A stretch of DNA of 64,000 nt. Origin: Pirellulimonas nuda (GTDB lineage Bacteria > Planctomycetota > Planctomycetia > Pirellulales > Lacipirellulaceae). Below are positions 22,472 through 46,399 of the stretch, piece after piece (position 1 is the first letter of the stretch; the number at the start of each line of letters is the position of its first letter). The position numbers and the translations under genes are program-made. Under the pieces are notes generated by a model. The model ran no database searches. It had not been told where the DNA came from and saw only the letters and a program-made list of their open reading frames with translations. The DNA is taken from contig NZ_CP036291.1 in NCBI RefSeq assembly GCF_007750855.1, positions 5,368,905 to 5,432,904 of the forward strand, given 5' to 3'.

Positions 22472-22888
22472 CTCAAGCGGCAGGGAAAGGGAGGGGCTGG
22501 TTTGCTTCAACTCGTGGGAGTATAAGGAGTTGAGGCGGATTTGCCTACGCCGCATCCGGCCTTGCCGCAGATGGCCAGGACGGGCTCTGGCGGCTAGTGG
22601 ATCGGCCGCCAGAAACCTTCCGGATTTTCCAAACAAAACACTTGCAAGGTCGCAAGCCGCGTGACTATTATGAGTCCACGCAGAGTGCGGGTACGCCCCT
22701 TTTTCGAGTCGACCTCCTGATCTGAGACCTCCAAACTCTTGGAAAGCTAGTGATCTGAGTCGATTCTGTATGGACGCTGCCCAGTGCAGACCCTTTTCGA
22801 CAGGATTCGTTTAGACAGTACACCGTGATTTTCACTACCACTCAGTTCGCGTCACAGTAAGACGCGAAGAAGCTTTCAGGAGGTGCTC
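22472..22888. other. Intergenic region between divergent thrS and PEP-CTERM gene
   Basis: 417 bp without a gene. It contains the candidate promoter at 22642-22671 and a long untranslated leader for the plus-strand gene. The segment around 22615-22680 is AT-rich relative to the window. No riboswitch class was recognised. Confidence 0.5.
22642..22671 (+). promoter_or_regulatory. Candidate sigma70-type promoter of the PEP-CTERM gene
   Basis: TTGCAA at 22642-22647 and TATTAT at 22666-22671 are separated by 18 bases. It would give a 5' leader of roughly 210 bases before the ATG at 22889. Consensus match is fair only. Confidence 0.35.
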
Positions 22889-23698
22889 ATGTTGCGAAAC
22901 AAAATGACCCTCGCGGGGATTCCCGCGATCTTTTCTCTCGTCTGCCTCTGCGCTCTTGCCGTTCCCAACGGCGCGCAAGCCGCCATCATTTACGGCGACT
23001 TTAGCGATGTCCCCCCCGGGGGCGTGATGTATCTGGATGTCACCGAGAGCTCCTTCTCGGTGCCCGTCCCTCCGAACGCCCTGTACGGCGCCCCGACCGC
23101 CACGGGCAACAACCTCGACTTCGACCCCTCCGCTTTCGGCGTTAGCTCTTCGGGCGGCAACTCTGGGGTAGTCGACGGTCAAGTCAGCTTCACGATCATG
23201 GCGCTCCCCGGTGCTGGCCTGACGAGCTTTGTGATCGCCGAGCGTGGCGACTACAGCTTTACCGGCGTGACCCCAACGCCGGGCACCTTTGTGTCGGCAA
23301 GCGCCGGCGCCACGGTGACGGTCTTGGAAGTTGACGGAGTGGCGTTGGCGAACCCGATCCTGCTGTTCGCTTCCGACACGTTCGTAACGGACTACCCCAC
23401 CACCGGTGGGGCGCCCTCCACCGGCCTGAAGTCGTGGTCGCTCAACACCACGGTCGACCTGGGCCCGTCGCTTCCCGTCGGGTTTGTTAGCGGCGCCTCG
23501 AAGATCGAGGTCTCGATCAACAACCAGCTCAACACCGCCACGACCCTGGGCAACCTGGCCGCGATCGCGAAGAAAGACTTCACGATCATCCCGGTTGGCG
23601 ACCTGATCCCCAACAACGTGGTTCCCGAGCCGGCGACGTTGTCGCTCGCCGCCCTGGCTTGCCTCGGCTTGGTCGCGGTCCGCCGCGGGAAGAAGTAG
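22889..23698 (+). CDS. PEP-CTERM sorting domain protein, secreted
   Basis: 269 residues. ATG 22889 is chosen because a perfect AGGAGG lies 5 bp upstream. A signal peptide (residues about 1-32, ending NGAQA) is followed by a beta-rich, Gly/Thr/Ser-rich body without recognised catalytic motifs. The C-terminus is a canonical PEP-CTERM: VPEPATLSLAALACLG, hydrophobic helix, then RRGKK. In this system exosortase cleaves the tag and the protein is delivered to the surface or matrix. It has a strong dedicated promoter region, ribosome site and terminator, so it is probably well expressed on its own. Confidence 0.85.
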   Translation: MLRNKMTLAGIPAIFSLVCLCALAVPNGAQAAIIYGDFSDVPPGGVMYLDVTESSFSVPVPPNALYGAPTATGNNLDFDPSAFGVSSSGGNSGVVDGQVSFTIMALPGAGLTSFVIAERGDYSFTGVTPTPGTFVSASAGATVTVLEVDGVALANPILLFASDTFVTDYPTTGGAPSTGLKSWSLNTTVDLGPSLPVGFVSGASKIEVSINNQLNTATTLGNLAAIAKKDFTIIPVGDLIPNNVVPEPATLSLAALACLGLVAVRRGKK

Positions 23699-23805: not shown

Positions 23806-24963
23806 TCACGGGCCGCCGTTCTTTTCGTACAGCGGCTCCGGCTGCCACAGGTACAAAAATAGCGGGAGTTCGGCGCGTTGCGACCCCGGAATGCTCAGCG
23901 GCGATGCCCCCGTGCCGGGCGTGTTCTGCGTGATGTCGTAAGAAGTAAGTGCGCGGTCGTTGCTGCGCCGGTACATCACGGTTTTCGCCTCAGACACGCC
24001 GCCCAACTGCTTGGCCGCTGCAATCGCCTCGTCCAGGTAGCCTACGTGATCGACCAGGCCCTGCTCGATTGCTTGCTCGGTTGTGAACACGCGCCCGTCG
24101 AACACGGTGCCGGCAAACGCGGTCGCGTTGGTTTCCTGGGGGTTGCGCGGACGACCTCCCGGCAGTTGTTCGACGATTTGGGGACGAGACTCAACGATCG
24201 TGCTTCGCAGCAGGTGGTGGTACTCGGATGCAATGCCTTCTAGAACCTTCTGCTCTTGAGACTCAAGGCCACGCAACGGGCTGCCCATATCCACCATCTC
24301 ACCGCTGCGGATGGCCCGCTGAGCAACCGGTGGAAGCTCTAACGCTAGCTGACCACTGTTGTCTTCTTCGTCTACGTCGACCTTCTCTAGGTCGTACAGG
24401 TTCAAAATGACGCCCAATCCGCCGGTAACCGTTGAAGGCCCCGCATAGACCGCGTCGGCCGCCGAGGCCAAGTAGTAGGCGCCTCCGGCGCCGACGTCCA
24501 TCAAGCACGCGACCACCGGGCGGCCAGTGCGGCGTCGAAACTCAACGAGGTCGTGCCGCATCATATCGGTCGCCGCCACGGATCCGCCGGGGCTGTTGAT
24601 CCGTAGAACGACCGCCACAACGCAGGGATCTGCGTCCGCCGCATCGAGCTTCTCACGGAACAGCGAGACGGGGTTCTCGCCCATGGATTGCGGCCCGGTC
24701 AGGTTCCCGTTGACCAGCAGGCCATCGACGTCGATTACCGCCACCTTGCGAGCCTGCCATCGGCTGCCGGCGAGCACGTAAGCATTCACGGGCCTGACGT
24801 TGCGATCGAGCACGGCAGAAGCCGCGATAGCGCCCTTTGCCTTAACGTCGCCTCGCATGCTTACTTGTGACGGCCCCGAGGCGCAGCCTGCCGCCAGGAG
24901 TACGACCGCGGACCACAGTCCTGCGCACCGCGTCGGGCATCTTGGCCAGGATAGAAACATCAT
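23806..24963 (-). CDS. SppA-like (peptidase S49 fold) lipoprotein, catalytic residues lost, copy 1
   Basis: 385 residues. The signal peptide ends in lipobox LAAGC (C27). The S49 fold is clear: VAVVLRINSPGGSVAATDMM, then ADAVYAGPSTVTGGLGVILNLY, FDGRVFTTEQAIEQGLVDHVGYLDEAI and a C-terminal LPLFLYLW comparable to bacillary SppA. Aligned without gaps to SppA, the nucleophile Ser of AASGGYY is Gly160 (in GAGGAYY), and the general-base Lys of KSGAHKD is Val224 (in RSGEMVD). It is therefore probably not a protease by the known Ser-Lys mechanism. It ends in the same 13 residues (WQPEPLYEKNGGP) as its tandem paralog upstream at 25054-26205. Confidence 0.8.
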   Translation of the reverse strand: MMFLSWPRCPTRCAGLWSAVVLLAAGCASGPSQVSMRGDVKAKGAIAASAVLDRNVRPVNAYVLAGSRWQARKVAVIDVDGLLVNGNLTGPQSMGENPVSLFREKLDAADADPCVVAVVLRINSPGGSVAATDMMRHDLVEFRRRTGRPVVACLMDVGAGGAYYLASAADAVYAGPSTVTGGLGVILNLYDLEKVDVDEEDNSGQLALELPPVAQRAIRSGEMVDMGSPLRGLESQEQKVLEGIASEYHHLLRSTIVESRPQIVEQLPGGRPRNPQETNATAFAGTVFDGRVFTTEQAIEQGLVDHVGYLDEAIAAAKQLGGVSEAKTVMYRRSNDRALTSYDITQNTPGTGASPLSIPGSQRAELPLFLYLWQPEPLYEKNGGP

Positions 24964-25053
24964 CGCACCGAGTGTCGCTGGGGTGGCTAGAGAATGGCGC
25001 TAAACTCGCAGCGATCGGCGCCCGGGTTGGCGGTTCCCGCAGGCGCGACCCGC

Positions 25054-26205
25054 TCAAGGGCCGCCATTCTTTTCGTACAGCGGCTCTGGCTGCCAGATGT
25101 AGAGGAACATCGGTAGCTGTGCACGGTCGTAGCCCGGGATACTAAGCGGCAGCAGGCCGCCTCCGGGTGTGTTCTGTGTAATGTCGTACGGAGTAAGCGC
25201 GCGGTCCGTATTGCGTCGGTAGAGCACCGTCTTCGCGGTCGTAACCCCCCCGAGGCCACGCGCCGCGGCCAGCGCGTCGTCAAGATAGCCGACGTTGTCG
25301 ATCAAGCCGAAGTGTAGGGCCTGCTCAGAGGTAAACACCCGCCCATCGAATACGGTGCCGGCGAACTCGTTGGGCAGCTTGCCGGTGGGAGCACTAGCGC
25401 CGGTCGCCCCGTTGCGGTCGCCAGGCACGGGTACTTCTTCGGGCAGTCGCTGAACCAGTTGTGATCGCGCCTCCATCACGGTCGCTCGGAGCCGGCGGTG
25501 GTACTGCTTGGCGATATCCTCCAGCACGGTTTTCTCTTCTTCGACCATGGCGCGCGTCGGGCTGCCGATATCGACCATCGCGCCGCTCTTGATTGCGCGC
25601 TCGAAGATGTTCTGCTGGCTTAGGGCGTCCTCCATATCGTAGAGGTTCAAGATCACCCCTAGCCCGCCGGTCACCGTGGTTGGGTGCGCGTACACCGTAT
25701 CGGCAGCGGTTGCTAGGCAGTAGGCGCCGCCGGCGCCGACGTCCATCAAACATGCGATCACCGGCAGCCCGGTGCGTAGCTTGAAGGCGACCAGGTCGTG
25801 TCGCATCATGTCGGTCGCCGTGACCCCGCCGCCGGGGCTGTTGATCCGCAGCACGACGGCCGCCACGCAGGGGTCGGCGGCCGCGGCGTCCAGCTTCTCG
25901 CGGAACAGCGCCACGGGGTTCTCGCCCATCGACTGCAGGCCCACGAGGTTGCGGTTCACCAGCACCCCATCGACGTCGATCACCGCGATCTTCGGGGAGC
26001 ACTTGGGGCTGCGCGGCAGCGCCCTAGCAGCAACCGGGGTGACGTTGTTGTCGATCACCGTCGACGTCTTCATCGCCCCTTTGGCGGTGATATCGCCGCG
26101 CATGCAGACGTACGCCGGGTGGTTCGAGCAACCCGCCACAAGCAACGCGAGCAGCGCGACGCCGTGGCGTGTGTGGATTAGCAGAGTGGGGGCAGAACGG
26201 GGCAT
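25054..26205 (-). CDS. SppA-like (peptidase S49 fold) lipoprotein, catalytic residues lost, copy 2
   Basis: 383 residues from ATG 26205. The frame runs further upstream into an overlapping gene region, but signal-peptide logic places the start here (lipobox LVAGC, C26). It is a close paralog of the 23806-24963 product through the whole length, except a variable loop after ILNLYDME. The SppA nucleophile position is Gly159 (GAGGAYC) and the Lys position is Val211 (KSGAMVD), the same two losses as in copy 1. The tail WQPEPLYEKNGGP is identical. Tandem duplication followed by retention argues for a non-enzymatic role such as envelope assembly or binding (inference). Confidence 0.78.
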   Translation of the reverse strand: MPRSAPTLLIHTRHGVALLALLVAGCSNHPAYVCMRGDITAKGAMKTSTVIDNNVTPVAARALPRSPKCSPKIAVIDVDGVLVNRNLVGLQSMGENPVALFREKLDAAAADPCVAAVVLRINSPGGGVTATDMMRHDLVAFKLRTGLPVIACLMDVGAGGAYCLATAADTVYAHPTTVTGGLGVILNLYDMEDALSQQNIFERAIKSGAMVDIGSPTRAMVEEEKTVLEDIAKQYHRRLRATVMEARSQLVQRLPEEVPVPGDRNGATGASAPTGKLPNEFAGTVFDGRVFTSEQALHFGLIDNVGYLDDALAAARGLGGVTTAKTVLYRRNTDRALTPYDITQNTPGGGLLPLSIPGYDRAQLPMFLYIWQPEPLYEKNGGP

Positions 26206-26345: not shown

Positions 26346-27233
26346 CTAGGGGGCCGGCGCCGTTTGCGCCACCGCTTTGGCCACCTGAGTGAGCAAAGCC
26401 ACGTACTTCTGCTGGTCGAACGTCCGCACGCAGGCGGCCTTGGCCAGCTCGGGGGAGAAGGGCACGTCGGTCCCCGGCGGGAGCGACTCGACGGCAAACG
26501 CCGTGGCGCTGGGGATGCCGAGCATGTTGAACTGGCCGCCGTCGACGTGCATCCGGCGGTTCTCGTGCAGGTTGGGGGGCAGCAGTTGGGGCGTGGCGTC
26601 GATCAGGCGGAAGTCGGCGCCGGGGCCCGGGTCGTCCATCGCCCAGACCAGCACGCCCAGGTCGCCCGTCCGCCGCGAGACCCAGATGAAGTACCGCGCC
26701 GTCGTCAGCACGTGCTTGCCGTCGCGCAGCAGGAGCGTCGGCGCGTCGATCACCATCCCGTACCTGTAGCGGGCGGTTTGCTGCGTGTCCTTGAGGGCCG
26801 CTTCGTTCCCCGAGAAGACCGAGCCGCCGATGAAGCCAAGGTTGGCCCCAAGCTGGCGGTGCGTGTCGCTGGTGATCACGACGTTGCGTCCCCCGATCGA
26901 AGTAGAGAAGCCGATCGCGGCCTTCTCTAGCACGTAGCCATCGTCGCCCTGCTGCACCACGTTGGCCAGCAGGATCAGGTTGAACAGCTCGGCGTACCGC
27001 GTGACGGTGCTGTTGACCACGCTGAGGTCGCCGGAGGTGAGCTGGCCGCGGACGAACAAAATCGGGTTCGACCACCCCTGCACGGTGTCGCCCCCCACCA
27101 CCACGCCGCTGGGGATGCGCGTCAACGGTCGCGGCTGGAAGTCCCAGCCGGCGCCCCCTTGGGCCAGGCAGCTAGAGGCGTAAAGCGCGAGTGCAGGCAG
27201 AGCGAGCAGGGCCCGGACGGTGCTGTTTCTCAT
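26346..27233 (-). CDS. Secreted protein of unknown function upstream of the SppA-like pair
   Basis: 295 residues from ATG 27233, the start of a signal peptide (MRNSTVRALLALPALALYASSCLAQ). A lipobox-like SSC is present but probably not used, since AQ follows as a normal cleavage site. The body is beta-rich with motifs GDTVQGWSNPILFVRGQLTSGD and GGRNVVITSDTHRQLGANLGF. No named family was recognised, though the style is that of planctomycete secreted proteins. It precedes the two SppA-like lipoproteins on the same strand with a 140-bp gap, so a three-gene unit is plausible. Confidence 0.6.
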   Translation of the reverse strand: MRNSTVRALLALPALALYASSCLAQGGAGWDFQPRPLTRIPSGVVVGGDTVQGWSNPILFVRGQLTSGDLSVVNSTVTRYAELFNLILLANVVQQGDDGYVLEKAAIGFSTSIGGRNVVITSDTHRQLGANLGFIGGSVFSGNEAALKDTQQTARYRYGMVIDAPTLLLRDGKHVLTTARYFIWVSRRTGDLGVLVWAMDDPGPGADFRLIDATPQLLPPNLHENRRMHVDGGQFNMLGIPSATAFAVESLPPGTDVPFSPELAKAACVRTFDQQKYVALLTQVAKAVAQTAPAP

Positions 27234-27327: not shown

Positions 27328-28620
27328 CTAGGCGGCTGTCCGCATGCCGGCCGGGTCGGAATCGGCGCCCACCGAGCCCCAGTCGATCAGCGCCGCAGAG
27401 GGGGGCAGGCCCATCCGCTCGCGGAGCCGGGCGGTCCAGTGGGCGGTGAAGTTTTCTGCCGAGTTGTACCGGACAAACCCTCGGGCGCCCTCGTTCGGGC
27501 GATGCCCCGCGGAGCGATCCAGCGCCCGCCGGACGCACGCCGCGAGCTGCTGGGGCGACCCCGCCGGCTCGCAGCCGGCCGCCACGCAGGCTTCCCCAAG
27601 CCCGAACCGCCGCACCACCGCGCCGCACCAGCCGTAGTCGGCGCACACCACCGGCTTGCCGGCGGCGACGGCGCGCGTGACGACGCTGGAGGAATAAGGG
27701 TGCCCGGAGTACAACGCGGAAACCGCGTCGCTCGCCGAGAACGCGGCGGCGAACTCGTCCGACGAGAGCATCCGATCGAGCAACACCACCCGGCCCGAGC
27801 GGACCAGGTCGGCGTACTCGCTTTCGATGAGCGTGCGGATGCTTGGCTCGCAGCGGCCCGCCAGCAGCAGCCCATCGCCGGGCGCGAACAGTTCGGGGTG
27901 CTCCCGAAAGGCGCGCAGCAGGGGCGCCACCCCCTTGTTGTGGCGGAGTTGCCCCAGGACCCCCAGGCGCCTCCCTGCCAGCGGCACACCGAGCCGCCCC
28001 CGGGCCTGTTGCAGCGGGACCAGCGGCTGGTGTTCGACGGGGTCGGGCAGCGGGCGGCTCTTGCGGGCCAGCGGCCCGTAGCTGGCCGCGCCGAACGCGG
28101 CCGCCTGTGGGTCGAAGCTGAAGACCGTACGCCACGGCTCGTGGGAGAGCTTGCGGAAGCGCTGCCAGCGACGAAAGTTGGCGCGCCACCGCGACCGGCG
28201 GTCGAGGCACGGGTAGAAATAAGCGCCGCCGATGACTAGCGTCTCTGCTTCCACCCCAGCGGCGCCGAGCAGCCGTTGCCAGCCGGCGCCGGCGGGCGCA
28301 TAGCTGGCCAGGCTGGTGCCGTCGGTCACGTAAACGTGCTGGGCGCGCGACTGGGCGATCGCCTGACTAAGCATCCCGCCCACCTCCGCCACGTGCCGAC
28401 GGCGCTGGACCCCGGCCTCGTGGTGCGCGGGACCGTCGAGCACAATCCGTCGCAACGAGCCGCGTCTCGCGAGGTGCGTCTGCCATTCCTCGGAACGGGC
28501 GCCCGCCGCGGAGGTAGCGAGCGTCACCTCACAGCCAAGCCCGCGCACCGCGTCGGCGAGCATGCCGACGTGGGCGTAGTGGTGGCCCAAGTACTCGGGC
28601 TCGAAGATCAGCGTGCGCAC
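27328..28620 (-). CDS. GT-B fold glycosyltransferase (group 1-like)
   Basis: 430 residues from GTG 28620, with GGAGG about 11 bp upstream. The N-terminal Rossmann half opens LIFEPEYLGHHYAHVGMLAD. The C-terminal half has the sugar-nucleotide-binding pattern of group 1 transferases: RLGVLGQLRHNKGVAPLLRAF, then a region of SALYSGHPYSSSVVTRAVAAGKPVVCADYG where an acidic E is often found. The family transfers a sugar from NDP- or prenyl donors to glycans. No partner genes are adjacent, so substrate is unknown. A repeat element lies just upstream. Confidence 0.75.
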   Translation of the reverse strand: MRTLIFEPEYLGHHYAHVGMLADAVRGLGCEVTLATSAAGARSEEWQTHLARRGSLRRIVLDGPAHHEAGVQRRRHVAEVGGMLSQAIAQSRAQHVYVTDGTSLASYAPAGAGWQRLLGAAGVEAETLVIGGAYFYPCLDRRSRWRANFRRWQRFRKLSHEPWRTVFSFDPQAAAFGAASYGPLARKSRPLPDPVEHQPLVPLQQARGRLGVPLAGRRLGVLGQLRHNKGVAPLLRAFREHPELFAPGDGLLLAGRCEPSIRTLIESEYADLVRSGRVVLLDRMLSSDEFAAAFSASDAVSALYSGHPYSSSVVTRAVAAGKPVVCADYGWCGAVVRRFGLGEACVAAGCEPAGSPQQLAACVRRALDRSAGHRPNEGARGFVRYNSAENFTAHWTARLRERMGLPPSAALIDWGSVGADSDPAGMRTAA

Positions 28621-28794: not shown

Positions 28795-29925
28795 TCAGTG
28801 TGATTGCCGCAGCGCGTCCGCGGGCGCCAGCTTGGTGGCGTGCATCGCCGGGATTACGCCGCCGAGGACGCCGACGATCACCGCCACGGCCATCCCCTGG
28901 CCGACGACGGCCGAGTCGATCCGCGAATTGACCATCATCGCCTGGGGCAGCAGGGTCAGCAGCCACACGATCAGGAAGGCCACCCCTACCCCCAACAGCC
29001 CCCCAAAAACGCTCAGCAACACCGACTCGCCGAGGATCATCTTGCCGACCCGGCTGCGGGTCCAGCCGACGGCGCGCAACAGGCCGATCTCGCCGGTGCG
29101 TTCTTGCAGCGACATAATCATCGTGTTGAGCATCCCGAGCGTGCCGACCACCATCGCGATGGCGCTGGTGAGCCACGCCATGCCGATCGCGAGCCGGATC
29201 TCCTGCAGGTTCTCCACGTGCTCCTTGGTGGGCTTGGCGACGATGCCGCGCTCCATCTTCTCTACCTCAGACTTGATCCGCGCCATCGCCTCTTTATCGT
29301 TGGGATCGTCCAGCACGATGCTGATGCCGGTTACCTGCCCCTCGCGGTCCATCATGTACTGGTGCTGCTTGAGCGAGAGCACGACCGCCGCGTTGTCGAG
29401 CTGGCTGTCCGCCTCGTAGATACCGACGATCTCGTACGGCTCGCCGGGGATCAGCTCCAGCGTGTCGCCGACGTTCTTCTCGACCGCCTTGGCGAGTCCT
29501 GCGCCCAGCATCGCCGCCGCCCCGTCGTCGACCGTTAGCTTGCGGCCCGACGTCATCCGGTAGTGGTCGAACACAAACGTGCCGGGCACCAGCCCGTTCA
29601 CGGGCACCACCTGCAGGCCGTAGTCGTTGAGCGAGATGATGTCGACCGAACCGGGGATCACGTCTTTCACGCCCGGCAGCGCAGCGATCTTGTCCGAGAT
29701 CTCCTCGGGGATGGCGCTGGTGAGCTTGCGGGCGCCCCCCTCGCGGGTCACCAGCATGTCGATGCCCAGTTCCTGGTAGAAGCTCTTAAAGGTGTCGAGG
29801 AACCCCGTCGAGATGCCGACAAGCGCCACTACGCTCGCCACCGCGATCGCCACCGCGCTTGCGGTCAAGAACGACCGCCATTTGCGGCGCATGACGTTGC
29901 GGAACAAGAACGAAATGAAGTTCAT
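28795..29925 (-). CDS. ABC transporter permease, MacB/FtsX type
   Basis: 376 residues. One TM helix near the N-terminus (FLTASAVAIAVASVVALVG), a periplasmic MacB-type core (about 45-240), then three C-terminal helices of the FtsX domain (SAIAMVVGTLGMLNTMIMS, GESVLLSVFGGLLGVGVAFL, GMAVAVIVGVLGGVIPAMHA). The cytoplasmic coupling motif ERTGEIGLLRAVGWTRSRV is clear. These permeases work with a separate ATPase in lipoprotein or peptide export rather than import. No ATPase gene is adjacent in the window, so it is either split or shares one encoded elsewhere. Confidence 0.85.
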   Translation of the reverse strand: MNFISFLFRNVMRRKWRSFLTASAVAIAVASVVALVGISTGFLDTFKSFYQELGIDMLVTREGGARKLTSAIPEEISDKIAALPGVKDVIPGSVDIISLNDYGLQVVPVNGLVPGTFVFDHYRMTSGRKLTVDDGAAAMLGAGLAKAVEKNVGDTLELIPGEPYEIVGIYEADSQLDNAAVVLSLKQHQYMMDREGQVTGISIVLDDPNDKEAMARIKSEVEKMERGIVAKPTKEHVENLQEIRLAIGMAWLTSAIAMVVGTLGMLNTMIMSLQERTGEIGLLRAVGWTRSRVGKMILGESVLLSVFGGLLGVGVAFLIVWLLTLLPQAMMVNSRIDSAVVGQGMAVAVIVGVLGGVIPAMHATKLAPADALRQSH

Positions 29926-30162: not shown

Positions 30163-31101
30163 CTACTCGGCGACTTCTTCGCTAGCCTTGGCCAGCTTGC
30201 GGCGGAAGTCGGTTACGTTGTTCTTTACCACGATCGGCAGCTTCGACGCCAACAGGTTGCGGCCCTTGAACCAGTCGTACGGTTCAACAAACACGCCGTG
30301 GCACTCCACCAGGATCGCGCCCGGCTCGAACTTCAGCTCGGTGGTCTGCAGGTAGCCCGCCAGGCCGCGCCACGGTTGGGGTTCGCCGAGGTCCTCGTCC
30401 CCCTGGGCGCCGCGGGGGATCTCTTGCCAGACCGTCGGGAAGTCTTTGTCGTCAAGCATCGAAACGGGCGACATGGAAGACTCCACCAGCATCGCCTGGA
30501 AGTCGCGCCCGTCTCCCTCCACGATGCCGGCGATCATCACCTTCTCGATCAACGGGAAGCGGAACCGCGTCAGGTGGTGGCGGCTAGCGCCCTTGAGCTG
30601 AAGGTCGAAGCCGCGCTCTTGGCACTCCTGCTGGGTGAGCCCCTCACCGTACTTCTCGAACCCGTCTTCTTCTGCCTCCCTGCCCTCTCCGCCGCGTCCT
30701 CCGCCGAGCACGCTCTGCATCAGGTCCTTGTCCCGCACCACAGCGAGCTTGCCGTACGCCACGAACGCTAGATCGAGCGTCCGCACCTTGGCGGATGGGA
30801 GCTCGGCGCCCGCTTCGCCGATCGAAAGCTCAAACGGGGAAACCACGGAATCCTTCATGAACTGTTCCATCCTCAACTCGCCAACGAGCGCCGCTACCGC
30901 CGCCCGTTGGGCTTCTGCGTCCATTGACGCATCGACCGTCGGGGGCGACACGATGACACGCACCCCCTCGGCGACCTCAAACCCCTCGGTCGCCAACTCA
31001 TTGACCACCGGGTGGGGAGAAAGCGGCTCCGCGGCGAAGCAGGGGCCGGCCAACAGGACGAGCAGCGATGCAAGTGAGAAGTACGTCGAGGTAGTGTGCA
31101 T
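30163..31101 (-). CDS. Secreted protein of unknown function
   Basis: 312 residues. ATG 31101 begins a signal peptide (MHTTSTYFSLASLLVLLAGP, cleavage after CFAA); the longer frame to 31272 crosses the repeat element and is rejected. The mature protein has alternating charged segments, including GGGRGGEGREAEEDGFEKYGE and a conserved-looking PQPWRGLAGYLQTTELKFEPGAILVECHGVF. No family was recognised. It stands alone between two repeat-bearing spacers. Confidence 0.6.
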   Translation of the reverse strand: MHTTSTYFSLASLLVLLAGPCFAAEPLSPHPVVNELATEGFEVAEGVRVIVSPPTVDASMDAEAQRAAVAALVGELRMEQFMKDSVVSPFELSIGEAGAELPSAKVRTLDLAFVAYGKLAVVRDKDLMQSVLGGGRGGEGREAEEDGFEKYGEGLTQQECQERGFDLQLKGASRHHLTRFRFPLIEKVMIAGIVEGDGRDFQAMLVESSMSPVSMLDDKDFPTVWQEIPRGAQGDEDLGEPQPWRGLAGYLQTTELKFEPGAILVECHGVFVEPYDWFKGRNLLASKLPIVVKNNVTDFRRKLAKASEEVAE

Positions 31102-43768: not shown

Positions 43769-46399
43769 ATGGCGACGCCATTCACGTTTTTTCGCAAGTA
43801 CACCGGCTGGATGATGGCGGTGCTGTGCGTGATGCTGATGTTCGCGTTTGTAGTCGGCGATCCGATTATGAACCGCCTGCAAGGGGAGGGCGGCCCCGGG
43901 ACCGGCAGCCGCAAGACGGCTGTCACCTGGAAAGGGGGGAGCCTGACCGAGGGCGACCTCTCGACCCTGATCGCCAAACGGGCCAGCCTGATGCGTTTCA
44001 TGGGCGGGATCGAGTACACGGGGCGGTCCGCCGCCGAACGCGAGGGCGCCGGCGGGCTCCCGCCACGCGTCCGCTTCATGCCGCTGCCCACCTCGCGAGA
44101 TCAAGGCGTAGAGGCCGACGTTGTGCGGATGAAGGTGGTCGCGGACGCGGCCCGCAAGGCAGGCATGGTCATCGGCGACGGGGCCGTGCTGGACTACCTG
44201 GCCGGGCTGGGACGCGACCGCGTGACCCCGCAAGAGATCTCCGACATCGCCAAGCAGGTGGGCCGCGACGCCGGGCCGCTGGCCTCGCTGAACAACCTGC
44301 TGGAGGGGGTCCGTGAGATGCTGCTGGTACGCAGCTTCCTCGGCAGCCTGACCTTCGAGCAGATCACCGTCACGCCGCAGCAGCGGTACGCGTTCTGGGA
44401 GAAGCTGAACGACCGGATGGCGGTTGAGGCGGCCCCCATCGCCGCCGAGAGCCTAGTGGCCAAAGTCGCCGATCCGACCGACGCCGAGCTCAGGAAGTAT
44501 TTTGACGCGCACAAAGATTTCGACCCGCAGCCGGTCCGCGTGATGGGGGTCGAGCTCCCCTCGCCCGACCCGGGCTTCGCCGTGCCGCGCAGGTTTGAGC
44601 TGCAATACCTGCAAGCCAGCTACGACGATTTCGTCGCCAAGGCGGCCGAAGAGGTCACCGACGAGCAGATCGCCCAGTACTACGAAGCGAACAAGGAGCA
44701 GTTCGTCAAAACCAGCACCGACCTGTTCGGCGAAGACGACGCAGCAGACGGCCCGGCCACAGACAGCCCGGAGATGGGCGACGGAGCCGGGTCAGAGACG
44801 CCAGAAGAGCCGGCGGAAGACGCCAAAGAAGACGGAGAGAAAGCAGCCGAGGCCGACAAGCCCGCCACCGATGAGCCTGCCAGTGAGGAAGCGGACAGCG
44901 AGGGACCCGGCAGTGACGAGCCGGCCGGCGACGACGCGCCCGAGCAGGAGTCGCCCACCAGCGACGCGGCCGACGAAGAGTCGCCCGCCGAATCCATGGA
45001 AAGCGACGGGGACACGGACGCCGAAACCCCGGCCGAATCGGAGTCCGAGGCAGACGAGGCAGCCGAAGCCGAGCCGGAGGCGACCCCCGAGAAGCCGAGC
45101 GAGCCAGCAGAGAGCCCGCAGCCCGAGGGAGAGCCGCAGTCGGCCCGCCCGAGCCGCTCGCCGTTCCGCCTCGCGGCGTACCAGCCCGAGGAGACCGCGG
45201 CCGACGATCCGGCGCCCGATGCCCAGGACGCCCCCGCCGCGGACGAAGAGCCCGCTGCCGAGGGCGAGGACGGCGAGGACCAACCAGCGGCCGACAAGAC
45301 GGAAGCAGACAAGCCTGAGGCCGACCTCTTCGACGGCCTAACCGATGGGATGGAGACCGAGCCCTCCCAGGACGCCAAGCCGGCCGACGAGACGGCCGCC
45401 CCCGAGAAGCCGAAGCAGTACGAGCCGCTCGAGGACGTCCGCGAGGAGATCCGCCAGATGCTGGCCCGCGACCAGGCCCCGGTGAAGATGATGGAGGTCA
45501 TCGAGCCGATCCAAGCCAAGCTGAAGGCGACCTACAACGACTACTTCTCAAAGGTGCTAGACGCCGAAGACGCCGGCCAGACCGTGCCGGAACCCCCGGC
45601 CGAGCTGCTCGACCTGACCCAGGTCGCCAAAGAGGCGGGCCTGACGTTCGAGAAGGTCGAGCCGGTGACCGTGCTGGAGCTGTTCGACAAGCCGGTCGGC
45701 AAGGCGCTGGACCTCAACGCGGGGGACGACACGCCGCTGGCGGCGCGGATGGCCGCGAAGCGCGGGATGTACCTCTACGACCCCATGGTGGCGATCGGCA
45801 ACACGATGTCGGGCAGCGACATCTACATCGTGATGAAGCTGGCCGAGACCGAGCGTAAGGTCCCCGAACTCGACGAGGTGCGGGACCGCGTGGTGCAGGA
45901 GTGGAAGCTGTCCAAGGCGGCCGACCTGGCGCTGGCCGAAGCCAAGAAGCTGGCCGGCGACGCCTCGCCCTCCGGCGTGCCTCTGGTTGAGTTCTTCGCC
46001 AATGAGCCCGAGATCAAGGTCGAGACCTCCGAGCCCTTCACGTGGCTGGAGCTCGGCTACGTCGACCCGATGTCGGGCAACGCGGTGGTGAGGCTCTCGC
46101 AGCCCAAGCCGCTAGAAGGGGTTGGCCCCGACTTTATGGAAGCGGTCGCCGGCCTCGAGGTGGGTGAGACCACAGCGGCGCTCAACCACGACCGTTCCAT
46201 CGCCTACGTGGTGCGGATGTCGGAGAAGCTCGAGAGCGAAGACTCGCTCCGCAGCGCGTTCCTCAAAGACGCCCGCATGTACGCCGGCCTGCCGAACCTG
46301 ATCCGCCAGCAAATGGGCGAAGTCAGCGGCGCGGTGCTCGACTCGTTCGACATCGACTGGAAGCGCGACCCGGACGCGCTAGCGCCCAGCGAGGAGTAG
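43769..46399 (+). CDS. PpiD/SurA-like membrane-anchored peptidyl-prolyl isomerase-type protein with long acidic insert
   Basis: 876 residues. One N-terminal TM anchor (TGWMMAVLCVMLMFAFVVGDP) precedes a SurA_N-like helical region (residues about 50-280) typical of PpiD. Residues about 322-552 are a low-complexity insert built almost wholly of Glu, Asp, Ala, Pro and Ser. The C-terminal part (about 555-860) has VREEIRQML, VPELDEVRDRVVQEWKLSKAADLALAEAKKLAG and VGETTAALNHDRSIAYVVRMSEK, as in PpiD C-terminal folds. A clean parvulin core was not recognised, so the insert may replace it. It is probably a periplasmic chaperone. Confidence 0.6.
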   Translation: MATPFTFFRKYTGWMMAVLCVMLMFAFVVGDPIMNRLQGEGGPGTGSRKTAVTWKGGSLTEGDLSTLIAKRASLMRFMGGIEYTGRSAAEREGAGGLPPRVRFMPLPTSRDQGVEADVVRMKVVADAARKAGMVIGDGAVLDYLAGLGRDRVTPQEISDIAKQVGRDAGPLASLNNLLEGVREMLLVRSFLGSLTFEQITVTPQQRYAFWEKLNDRMAVEAAPIAAESLVAKVADPTDAELRKYFDAHKDFDPQPVRVMGVELPSPDPGFAVPRRFELQYLQASYDDFVAKAAEEVTDEQIAQYYEANKEQFVKTSTDLFGEDDAADGPATDSPEMGDGAGSETPEEPAEDAKEDGEKAAEADKPATDEPASEEADSEGPGSDEPAGDDAPEQESPTSDAADEESPAESMESDGDTDAETPAESESEADEAAEAEPEATPEKPSEPAESPQPEGEPQSARPSRSPFRLAAYQPEETAADDPAPDAQDAPAADEEPAAEGEDGEDQPAADKTEADKPEADLFDGLTDGMETEPSQDAKPADETAAPEKPKQYEPLEDVREEIRQMLARDQAPVKMMEVIEPIQAKLKATYNDYFSKVLDAEDAGQTVPEPPAELLDLTQVAKEAGLTFEKVEPVTVLELFDKPVGKALDLNAGDDTPLAARMAAKRGMYLYDPMVAIGNTMSGSDIYIVMKLAETERKVPELDEVRDRVVQEWKLSKAADLALAEAKKLAGDASPSGVPLVEFFANEPEIKVETSEPFTWLELGYVDPMSGNAVVRLSQPKPLEGVGPDFMEAVAGLEVGETTAALNHDRSIAYVVRMSEKLESEDSLRSAFLKDARMYAGLPNLIRQQMGEVSGAVLDSFDIDWKRDPDALAPSEE

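Follow-up and report, generated by a model that had tools for sequence, protein, structure and literature searches.

How can a protein keep the fold of the peptidase SppA, and be held by selection, when the two residues that SppA uses for catalysis are gone? The question is raised by a tandem gene pair of Pirellulimonas nuda (Planctomycetota, Planctomycetia, Pirellulales, Lacipirellulaceae), found in a 64,000-nucleotide stretch of contig NZ_CP036291.1 (positions 5,368,905 to 5,432,904, forward strand). This whole stretch is called the window below, and unprefixed coordinates refer to it. The two genes, both on the minus strand, encode SppA-like lipoproteins, A (23806-24963; 385 residues) and B (25054-26205; 383 residues), in which Gly and Val occupy the columns of the nucleophile Ser and the general-base Lys of peptidase family S49. 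Proteins of this kind are referred to here as dead SppA.

An SppA fold with both catalytic positions replaced

Proteins A and B each have a signal peptide with a lipobox (recognized by eye and by a lipobox script), an S49 domain and a conserved C-terminal tail, which reads LPLFLYLW at residue 366 of A and LPMFLYIW at residue 364 of B. Pfam Peptidase_S49 (PF01343; cut-off 24.9 bits) is matched at 70.6 bits by A and 84.6 bits by B, and the NCBIfam SppA equivalogs are matched below their curated cut-offs (113.2 and 131.1 vs 155.45 for TIGR00706; 117.1 and 114.5 vs 311.45 for TIGR00705). Protein A aligns with Bacillus subtilis SppA (3rst, 4kwb) and with Escherichia coli SppA. An earlier note on this DNA, made from the sequence alone, had described an SppA-like lipoprotein pair, which the Pfam scores, the structural match and the lipobox Cys bear out. 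It had also placed Gly160 (A) and Gly159 (B) at the nucleophile Ser, and Val224 and Val211 at the general-base Lys. Exactly these residues are given by alignment to solved SppA, at 24484-24486 and 24292-24294 (minus strand) in A and at 25729-25731 and 25573-25575 (minus strand) in B; for Val224, the sequence register outweighs the structural model.

That model, an AlphaFold single-chain prediction of A from 58 sequences, has a mean predicted local distance difference test score (pLDDT) of 77.9 and a predicted template modelling score (pTM) of 0.78, with pLDDT above 90 in blocks 71-80, 101-180, 251-260 and 291-330. Over residues 70-332 it matches SppA at Z 23.6 (4kwb_A; 223 residues, 2.6 A) and Z 23.5 (3rst_C); E. 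coli SppA scores Z 21.5, and the next family other than SppA is ClpP at Z 17.4. The predicted fold of A is thus of the ClpP/crotonase type and closest to SppA. Fold, SPGG motif and LPLFLYLW region had all been thought to be kept. This holds for the fold as modeled and in part for SPGG, whose Pro is variable in the wider family (H, Y, G, S or A in some rows) while both Gly are invariant in 58 aligned rows, and FLYLW lies outside the solved SppA core.

Relatives were collected by searching 396 Pirellulales genomes with protein A, dead SppA being called at E 1e-40 or better, and it was found in 66 of them. A family-profile scan of named genomes yielded 92 relatives, and the 80 with the best matches were retained, with titles that include Rhodopirellula, Stieleria, Gemmata, Zavarzinella and Singulisphaera; the same scan with a single protein as query gave no match, compared with 92 for the alignment query. 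A family-profile search of the phylum matched in 102 of 392 genomes, but most of the loci retained from it (16/20) encode intact proteins, hence no count of dead SppA is drawn from it. In the Pirellulales and named sets together, none of 153 rows has Lys at the general-base column, including L221 from another order. Among 110 non-redundant rows (<95% identity), this column holds Ile in 73, Val in 22, Thr in 10, Ala in three, Ser in one and Gly in one, and the Ser column holds Gly in 107 and Ser in three, with the following Gly kept in 107. The register of the alignment is fixed by near-constant flanking residues, a Gly three positions before the Lys column (109/110) and an Asp one position after it (108/110).

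The three rows with Ser (L039:4427-5503, L076:6914-8080 and L221:1495-2718) have Ile at the Lys column and nest inside the clade, so that the loss of Lys is common to the whole clade. They may have regained Ser, or may preserve a trace of which residue was lost first. As read from the alignments, Lys was lost before the clade diversified and Ser was lost in all but these three rows. That A and B lack the Ser/Lys dyad and cannot act as S49 peptidases is, on the same basis, well supported.

According to the earlier note, what would speak against this is a motif out of register, with another Ser as nucleophile, or a Ser-Lys dyad at some other place in the fold; both were sought in the alignments and not found. 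A shifted dyad was considered for the 31 of 110 relatives in which a Lys stands one residue before the catalytic position (SGxKID), and was rejected because the Gly/Asp register holds, the extra Lys varies among relatives, A and B carry Met in its place, and it is absent from all three rows with Ser. Twenty-three columns are invariant in 58 sequences. Besides the lipobox Cys, the polar residues conserved at 99-100% are R121, Y163, R260, D305, R363, D80, D170 and D289. In the alignment, no Ser, Lys or His elsewhere reaches 95% conservation, the best being S93 and K105 at 91%, and therefore no replacement dyad is in sight at the level of sequence.

One clade under purifying selection

A maximum-likelihood (ML) tree was built by a quick method, with no bootstrap, from 104 rows. 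These included 79 dead rows (60 family rows at <80% identity and 19 hand-picked), 11 of 16 intact proteins from other classes, 13 canonical SppA and 3rst, also hand-picked, and left out the near-copies L124, L084, L116 and L113. All 79 dead rows form one clade, with a support of 100 in the Shimodaira-Hasegawa-like approximate likelihood-ratio test (SH-aLRT). The clade sits among intact SppA-like proteins mostly from other classes of the phylum (unstarred supports of 82 and 87 at the nesting forks), and the 370-400-residue SppA of its relatives is more distant. Proteins A and B are sisters in this tree, and their tandem is a local duplication. Retention of two paralogs had been taken as a signal of function, which does not stand, because most genomes carry one copy (a single match in 62 of 66 dead-SppA genomes, with at most four candidates scored per genome).

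The dead-SppA clade is under purifying selection: the ratio of nonsynonymous to synonymous substitution rates (dN/dS) has a median of 0.11 and a maximum of 0.34 over the 109 of 155 pairs with dS <1.5, pairs that overlap and draw on some genomes twice. The conservation and dN/dS analysis skipped rows with Lys at the general-base column, of which there were none, and the intact relatives L048 and L049 were excluded from the family. Alignment A1 omitted 14 of 70 rows (11 for want of a clear start, L124 as a duplicate locus, and the rows of A and B, entered as P0001 and P0002).

The lipobox was claimed to be kept, and it is: Cys27 in A and Cys26 in B fall in a column that is Cys in 99% of 109 relatives. 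This column count was used in place of the lipobox script, which gave a lipobox together with a suitable start in 62 of 70 rows, because the script mispicked several lipoboxes (clearly in L084, L082, L115 and L120). Asp follows the lipobox Cys in none of the 59 rows scored, some with mispicked lipoboxes. By the sorting rule of E. coli, which may not be that of planctomycetes, a residue other than Asp at this position would permit sorting to the outer membrane. In L107, L109 and L112, a repetitive linker rich in Met, Gly and Asp (GDM-type repeats) lies between the lipid anchor and the domain. L123 and L124 (G364:C58:21166-22047 and 44775-45656) have equal scores and the same neighbor pattern on opposite strands of one contig, and may be an inverted duplication or an assembly artefact. 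L148, L152 and L154 are titled Kuenenia or Nealsonbacteria, yet appear to be the Pirellulales genomes G178, G208 and G373, so the titles look wrong.

Genes inherited or found with dead SppA

Strong co-inheritance links dead SppA with X2, a protein with a signal peptide (by eye) encoded 4 kb upstream of the gene pair (30163-31101, minus strand). X2 occurs in 78 of the 396 Pirellulales genomes. Nearly all dead-SppA genomes have it (64/66), compared with 14 of the 330 others; by genus, it occurs in 35 of 37 with dead SppA and 11 of 107 others. Within the family of P. nuda itself, the same five genomes carry both. The association holds beyond adjacency, since the flanks retrieved around dead-SppA loci contain X2 in only 32 of 68 cases (0/20 at the control loci described below). 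It extends to all 14 further dead-SppA genomes. One is G762, from a different order of the class; named loci led to the other 13, whose titles are Gemmata, Gemmataceae, Zavarzinella, Singulisphaera or Isosphaeraceae in 11 cases and simply Planctomycetota in two. X2 was found in none of 61 control genomes, 50 from other classes with a profile match (of which eight were read, as intact) and 11 from the class itself with no match, and this empty search counts as absence only because the same query does match in the sets of 396 and 14 genomes.

X2 is predicted to have a START (StAR-related lipid transfer) fold. Its model (pLDDT 90.1; pTM 0.86) matches STARD4 (Z 12.0), CERT (11.9) and STARD5 (11.9), and the top 37 of 50 VIA rows are START or START-like carotenoid-binding domains (Z 10.2-12.0). 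Because identities are about 10%, the likeness is a statement about predicted fold only. X2 may be a candidate bacterial lipid-transfer family of its own.

A second protein, X11, exported or anchored, is encoded at 26346-27233 (minus strand). It is present in 72 genomes, which comprise 55 of the 66 dead-SppA genomes and 17 of the 330 others, and its sequence profile gave no usable match in the PDB. A second X11 copy in P. nuda lies outside the window (C1:309332-310168), about 5 kb from AMP-ligase matches at C1:291797-303873. Because this copy adjoins AMP-ligase matches, X11 may follow AMP-ligase-type synthases independently of dead SppA.

For the gene neighborhood as a whole, open reading frames near dead-SppA loci were clustered, and profiles built from the recurring families were then run against 68 loci from 66 genomes (64 of the loci hold 8 kb or more). 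The control was 20 hand-picked canonical sppA loci, seven from genomes that also carry the dead form. An FtsX/MacB-type permease is present at 33 of 68 dead-SppA loci and 0 of 20 controls. In the window this is a LolCE/MacB-type ATP-binding cassette (ABC) permease at 28795-29925 (minus strand; MacB_PCD 79.9 bits and FtsX 67.9 bits, above cut-off). The other markers are ketosynthase (KS; 15/68), phosphopantetheinyl transferase (12/68), adjacent X11 (10/68) and AMP-ligase (8/68), each 0/20 in the control, and a LolD-like ATPase is found at 24/68 vs 3/20. Any of six markers, the ATPase not counted, is found at 48 of 68 loci vs 0 of 20 (Fisher p 4e-9, with loci treated as independent though they are not), and in 27 of 37 genera. 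A glycosyltransferase gene between permease and X11 (27328-28620, minus strand) is in the gene run and outside the conserved set. It was considered as a component of the system and rejected, since among 276 genomes just 10 have a match and dead SppA is present in two of those (G000, G245); a gene of the same run thus need not follow the distribution of dead SppA.

Synthases recur at other loci. KS is present at 25 of the 44 named loci that do not duplicate the first set, and type I polyketide synthases were recognized with Pfam and NCBIfam models at L212 (KS-AT-DH-ER-KR) and L122 (KS-AT-DH-ER, cut by the end of the locus). L043, L044 and L077 have nonribosomal peptide synthetases (NRPS) and fatty-acyl-AMP-ligase-like proteins. 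The Zavarzinella locus L199 has a PfaA-like synthase with a nitronate-monooxygenase (NMO) domain (NMO-KS-AT-ACP-KR), just under the PfaA cut-off (1007.1 vs 1010.1). On the other side of the gene pair, a convergent gene at 22883-23698 (plus strand) encodes a protein whose C-terminus, VPEPATLSLAALACLGLVAVRRGKK, resembles a PEP-CTERM sorting signal.

A possible role in lipid transport

The reading favored here, with a probability of about 60%, is that dead SppA no longer cuts and instead serves Planctomycetia as a lipid-anchored platform of SppA fold, within a route by which a lipid made by a synthase leaves the inner membrane. The conserved non-enzymatic job proposed in the earlier note stands as a non-proteolytic role at the membrane, given the clade-wide loss of Lys, the loss of Ser bar 3 of 110 rows, purifying selection and the lipobox. 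The genomic context does not point to a scaffold or chaperone for proteins but to lipid trafficking, with START-fold X2, a MacB/LolCE-type permease and polyketide/NRPS-type synthases. In the proposed pathway, a polyketide/NRPS-type synthase would make an acyl product, a MacB/LolCE-type ABC transporter would move it, exported START-fold X2 would carry the lipid, and dead SppA, membrane-anchored and probably oligomeric, would receive or dock it. The former signal-peptide groove would then bind hydrophobic chains, which it would be expected to suit, or the conserved FLYLW tail of dead SppA itself. What we infer is the lipid role itself, together with a lipid as cargo, oligomer formation, direct contact between dead SppA and X2, and the sequence of events. 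More tentatively, and with rather more doubt than confidence, these genes could form a dedicated envelope-lipid exporter of Planctomycetia, composed of a MacB/LolCE-type ABC transporter, an exported START-fold carrier and an SppA converted to a lipid-anchored, non-cutting docking subunit.

For B. subtilis SppA, a K199A mutant is reported to be inactive and yet to purify as an octamer; each active site is built from two neighboring monomers, and the C-terminal region has been solved bound in the active site (PMC7568657). By analogy, loss of the dyad need not disturb assembly, because K199A is still octameric, and the groove may be occupied by the FLYLW tail, because the C-terminal region of SppA is seen in the active site. 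Dead SppA shares with bacterial SppA (MEROPS S49; 3rst/4kwb, 3bez/3bf0) the fold over residues 70-332, the SPGG loop, and the position and surroundings of the active site. It differs in having Gly for Ser and mostly Ile, Val or Thr for Lys, a lipobox in place of a transmembrane anchor, a different gene neighborhood, and an extra conserved C-terminal PGxDRSxLPTFLYLWQPEP. Nearest to it, by profile score and tree, are intact SppA-like proteins of other classes (L222-L237), many of which share the CxMD...SGGYY and SGxxKD frame and a C-terminal FxYLW; unlike dead SppA, all 16 read retain Ser and Lys, and eight are in the set of 50 genomes negative for X2. X2 resembles the START domains of CERT and STARD4 in predicted fold (Z 12), but is exported, bacterial and devoid of detectable sequence similarity to them. 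The Bst sterol transporters of Methylococcus are alike as the idea of a dedicated periplasmic lipid conduit from inner to outer membrane; among them, BstB binds substrate in the periplasm and BstC is a TRAP T-component protein, and the available part of the report mentions no SppA or START relative (PMC10942540).

Several points weigh against the proposed lipid pathway. The START assignment of X2 rests on prediction, because X2 has no sequence match in Pfam (E 0.01), NCBIfam (E 0.001) or PDB sequences (E 1), and its best Foldseek match, CERT (E 1.7e-5), has a low TM-score of 0.35 by query. Kinship was handled only to genus level in the co-occurrence counts, and divergent dead-SppA copies could be missed in the 14 genomes with X2 only, because a single query protein was used at E 1e-40. 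All six markers are missing from 20 of the 68 loci (which have the ATPase at most) and from 10 of 37 genera, and within Pirellulales KS is adjacent in 4 of 37 genera. The neighbor profiles, KS and AMP-ligase excepted, were trained on the same loci, which favors these loci over the control. From 15 to 36 kb of the window, the models used recognize no synthase or ABC ATPase; the P. nuda genome has KS and AMP-ligase genes elsewhere. Finally, the position of the Lys column rests mainly on sequence alignment, because the model of A is weak just before Val224 (pLDDT 48-58 at 191-220 and 73 at 221-230).

Some of the same observations could fit a different enzyme on the ClpP/crotonase fold, in which the oxyanion-hole glycines would stabilize an acyl intermediate, for example in acyl transfer, with no need for Ser or Lys. 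Both Gly of SPGG and the Gly after the Ser position are retained as noted above (58 rows and 107/110, respectively), and acyl-making synthases are among the neighbors. An enzyme of this kind is nevertheless unlikely, as no Ser, Lys or His reaches 95% conservation, and predicted export and a lipid anchor would place the protein away from thioesters of coenzyme A (CoA) or acyl carrier protein (ACP).

A regulatory role is also improbable. The dead protein would mix into or cap the resident active SppA and tune it, as ClpR does for ClpP. ClpR, like other pseudoproteases, has kept a protease fold after its catalytic residues were lost, and works inside the ClpP ring; in contrast to ClpR, there is no evidence here of dead SppA mixing with active SppA. 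Partners would be at hand in P. nuda, which has two other S49 genes, one of 401 residues with Ser and Lys and one of 699 residues with an intact Ser loop, and a dead subunit could poison its neighbors because sites are shared by two monomers (PMC7568657). However, 58 of 59 relatives match the query, with Ser and Lys at all 19 loci read (L018-L036), yet the dead form is in only 66 of 396 genomes. Moreover, the nearest intact relatives are mostly from other classes and are not the resident 370-400-residue SppA (forks 82 and 87), and the six marker neighbors are absent from the canonical sppA loci.

A scaffold or chaperone at the membrane, as suggested in the earlier note, that served exported proteins and had nothing to do with lipids would account for the lipobox, the retained fold and the dead site. 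It is a rather poor prospect, because the most constant partner is START-fold X2, with synthases and a MacB/LolCE-type permease as frequent neighbors, and no secretion or folding genes are among the recurring neighbor clusters listed, though no search was aimed at them. Decaying duplicates with no function, as loss of both catalytic residues might suggest, can scarcely be credited given the median dN/dS of 0.11, the 23 invariant columns in 58 sequences, and no internal stop in the matches listed.

Pseudoproteases as such are a known kind; in the literature searched, mostly open-access, no description was found of a conserved dead S49 family, nor of the combination of dead SppA, a START-fold carrier and a synthase-linked exporter. 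Planctomycetes carry polyketide-type synthases, the products of which are largely unknown. Cluster counts per genome are given in PMC13190842. Altogether, the data suggest a protease shape reused for moving lipids rather than cutting proteins, for which the fold-based name "signal peptide peptidase" would mislead. If the link with X2 holds, dead SppA would be a case of a protease fold reused for lipid handling, and dead SppA and its partners would provide testable candidate genes for the delivery of synthase-made lipids into the planctomycete envelope.

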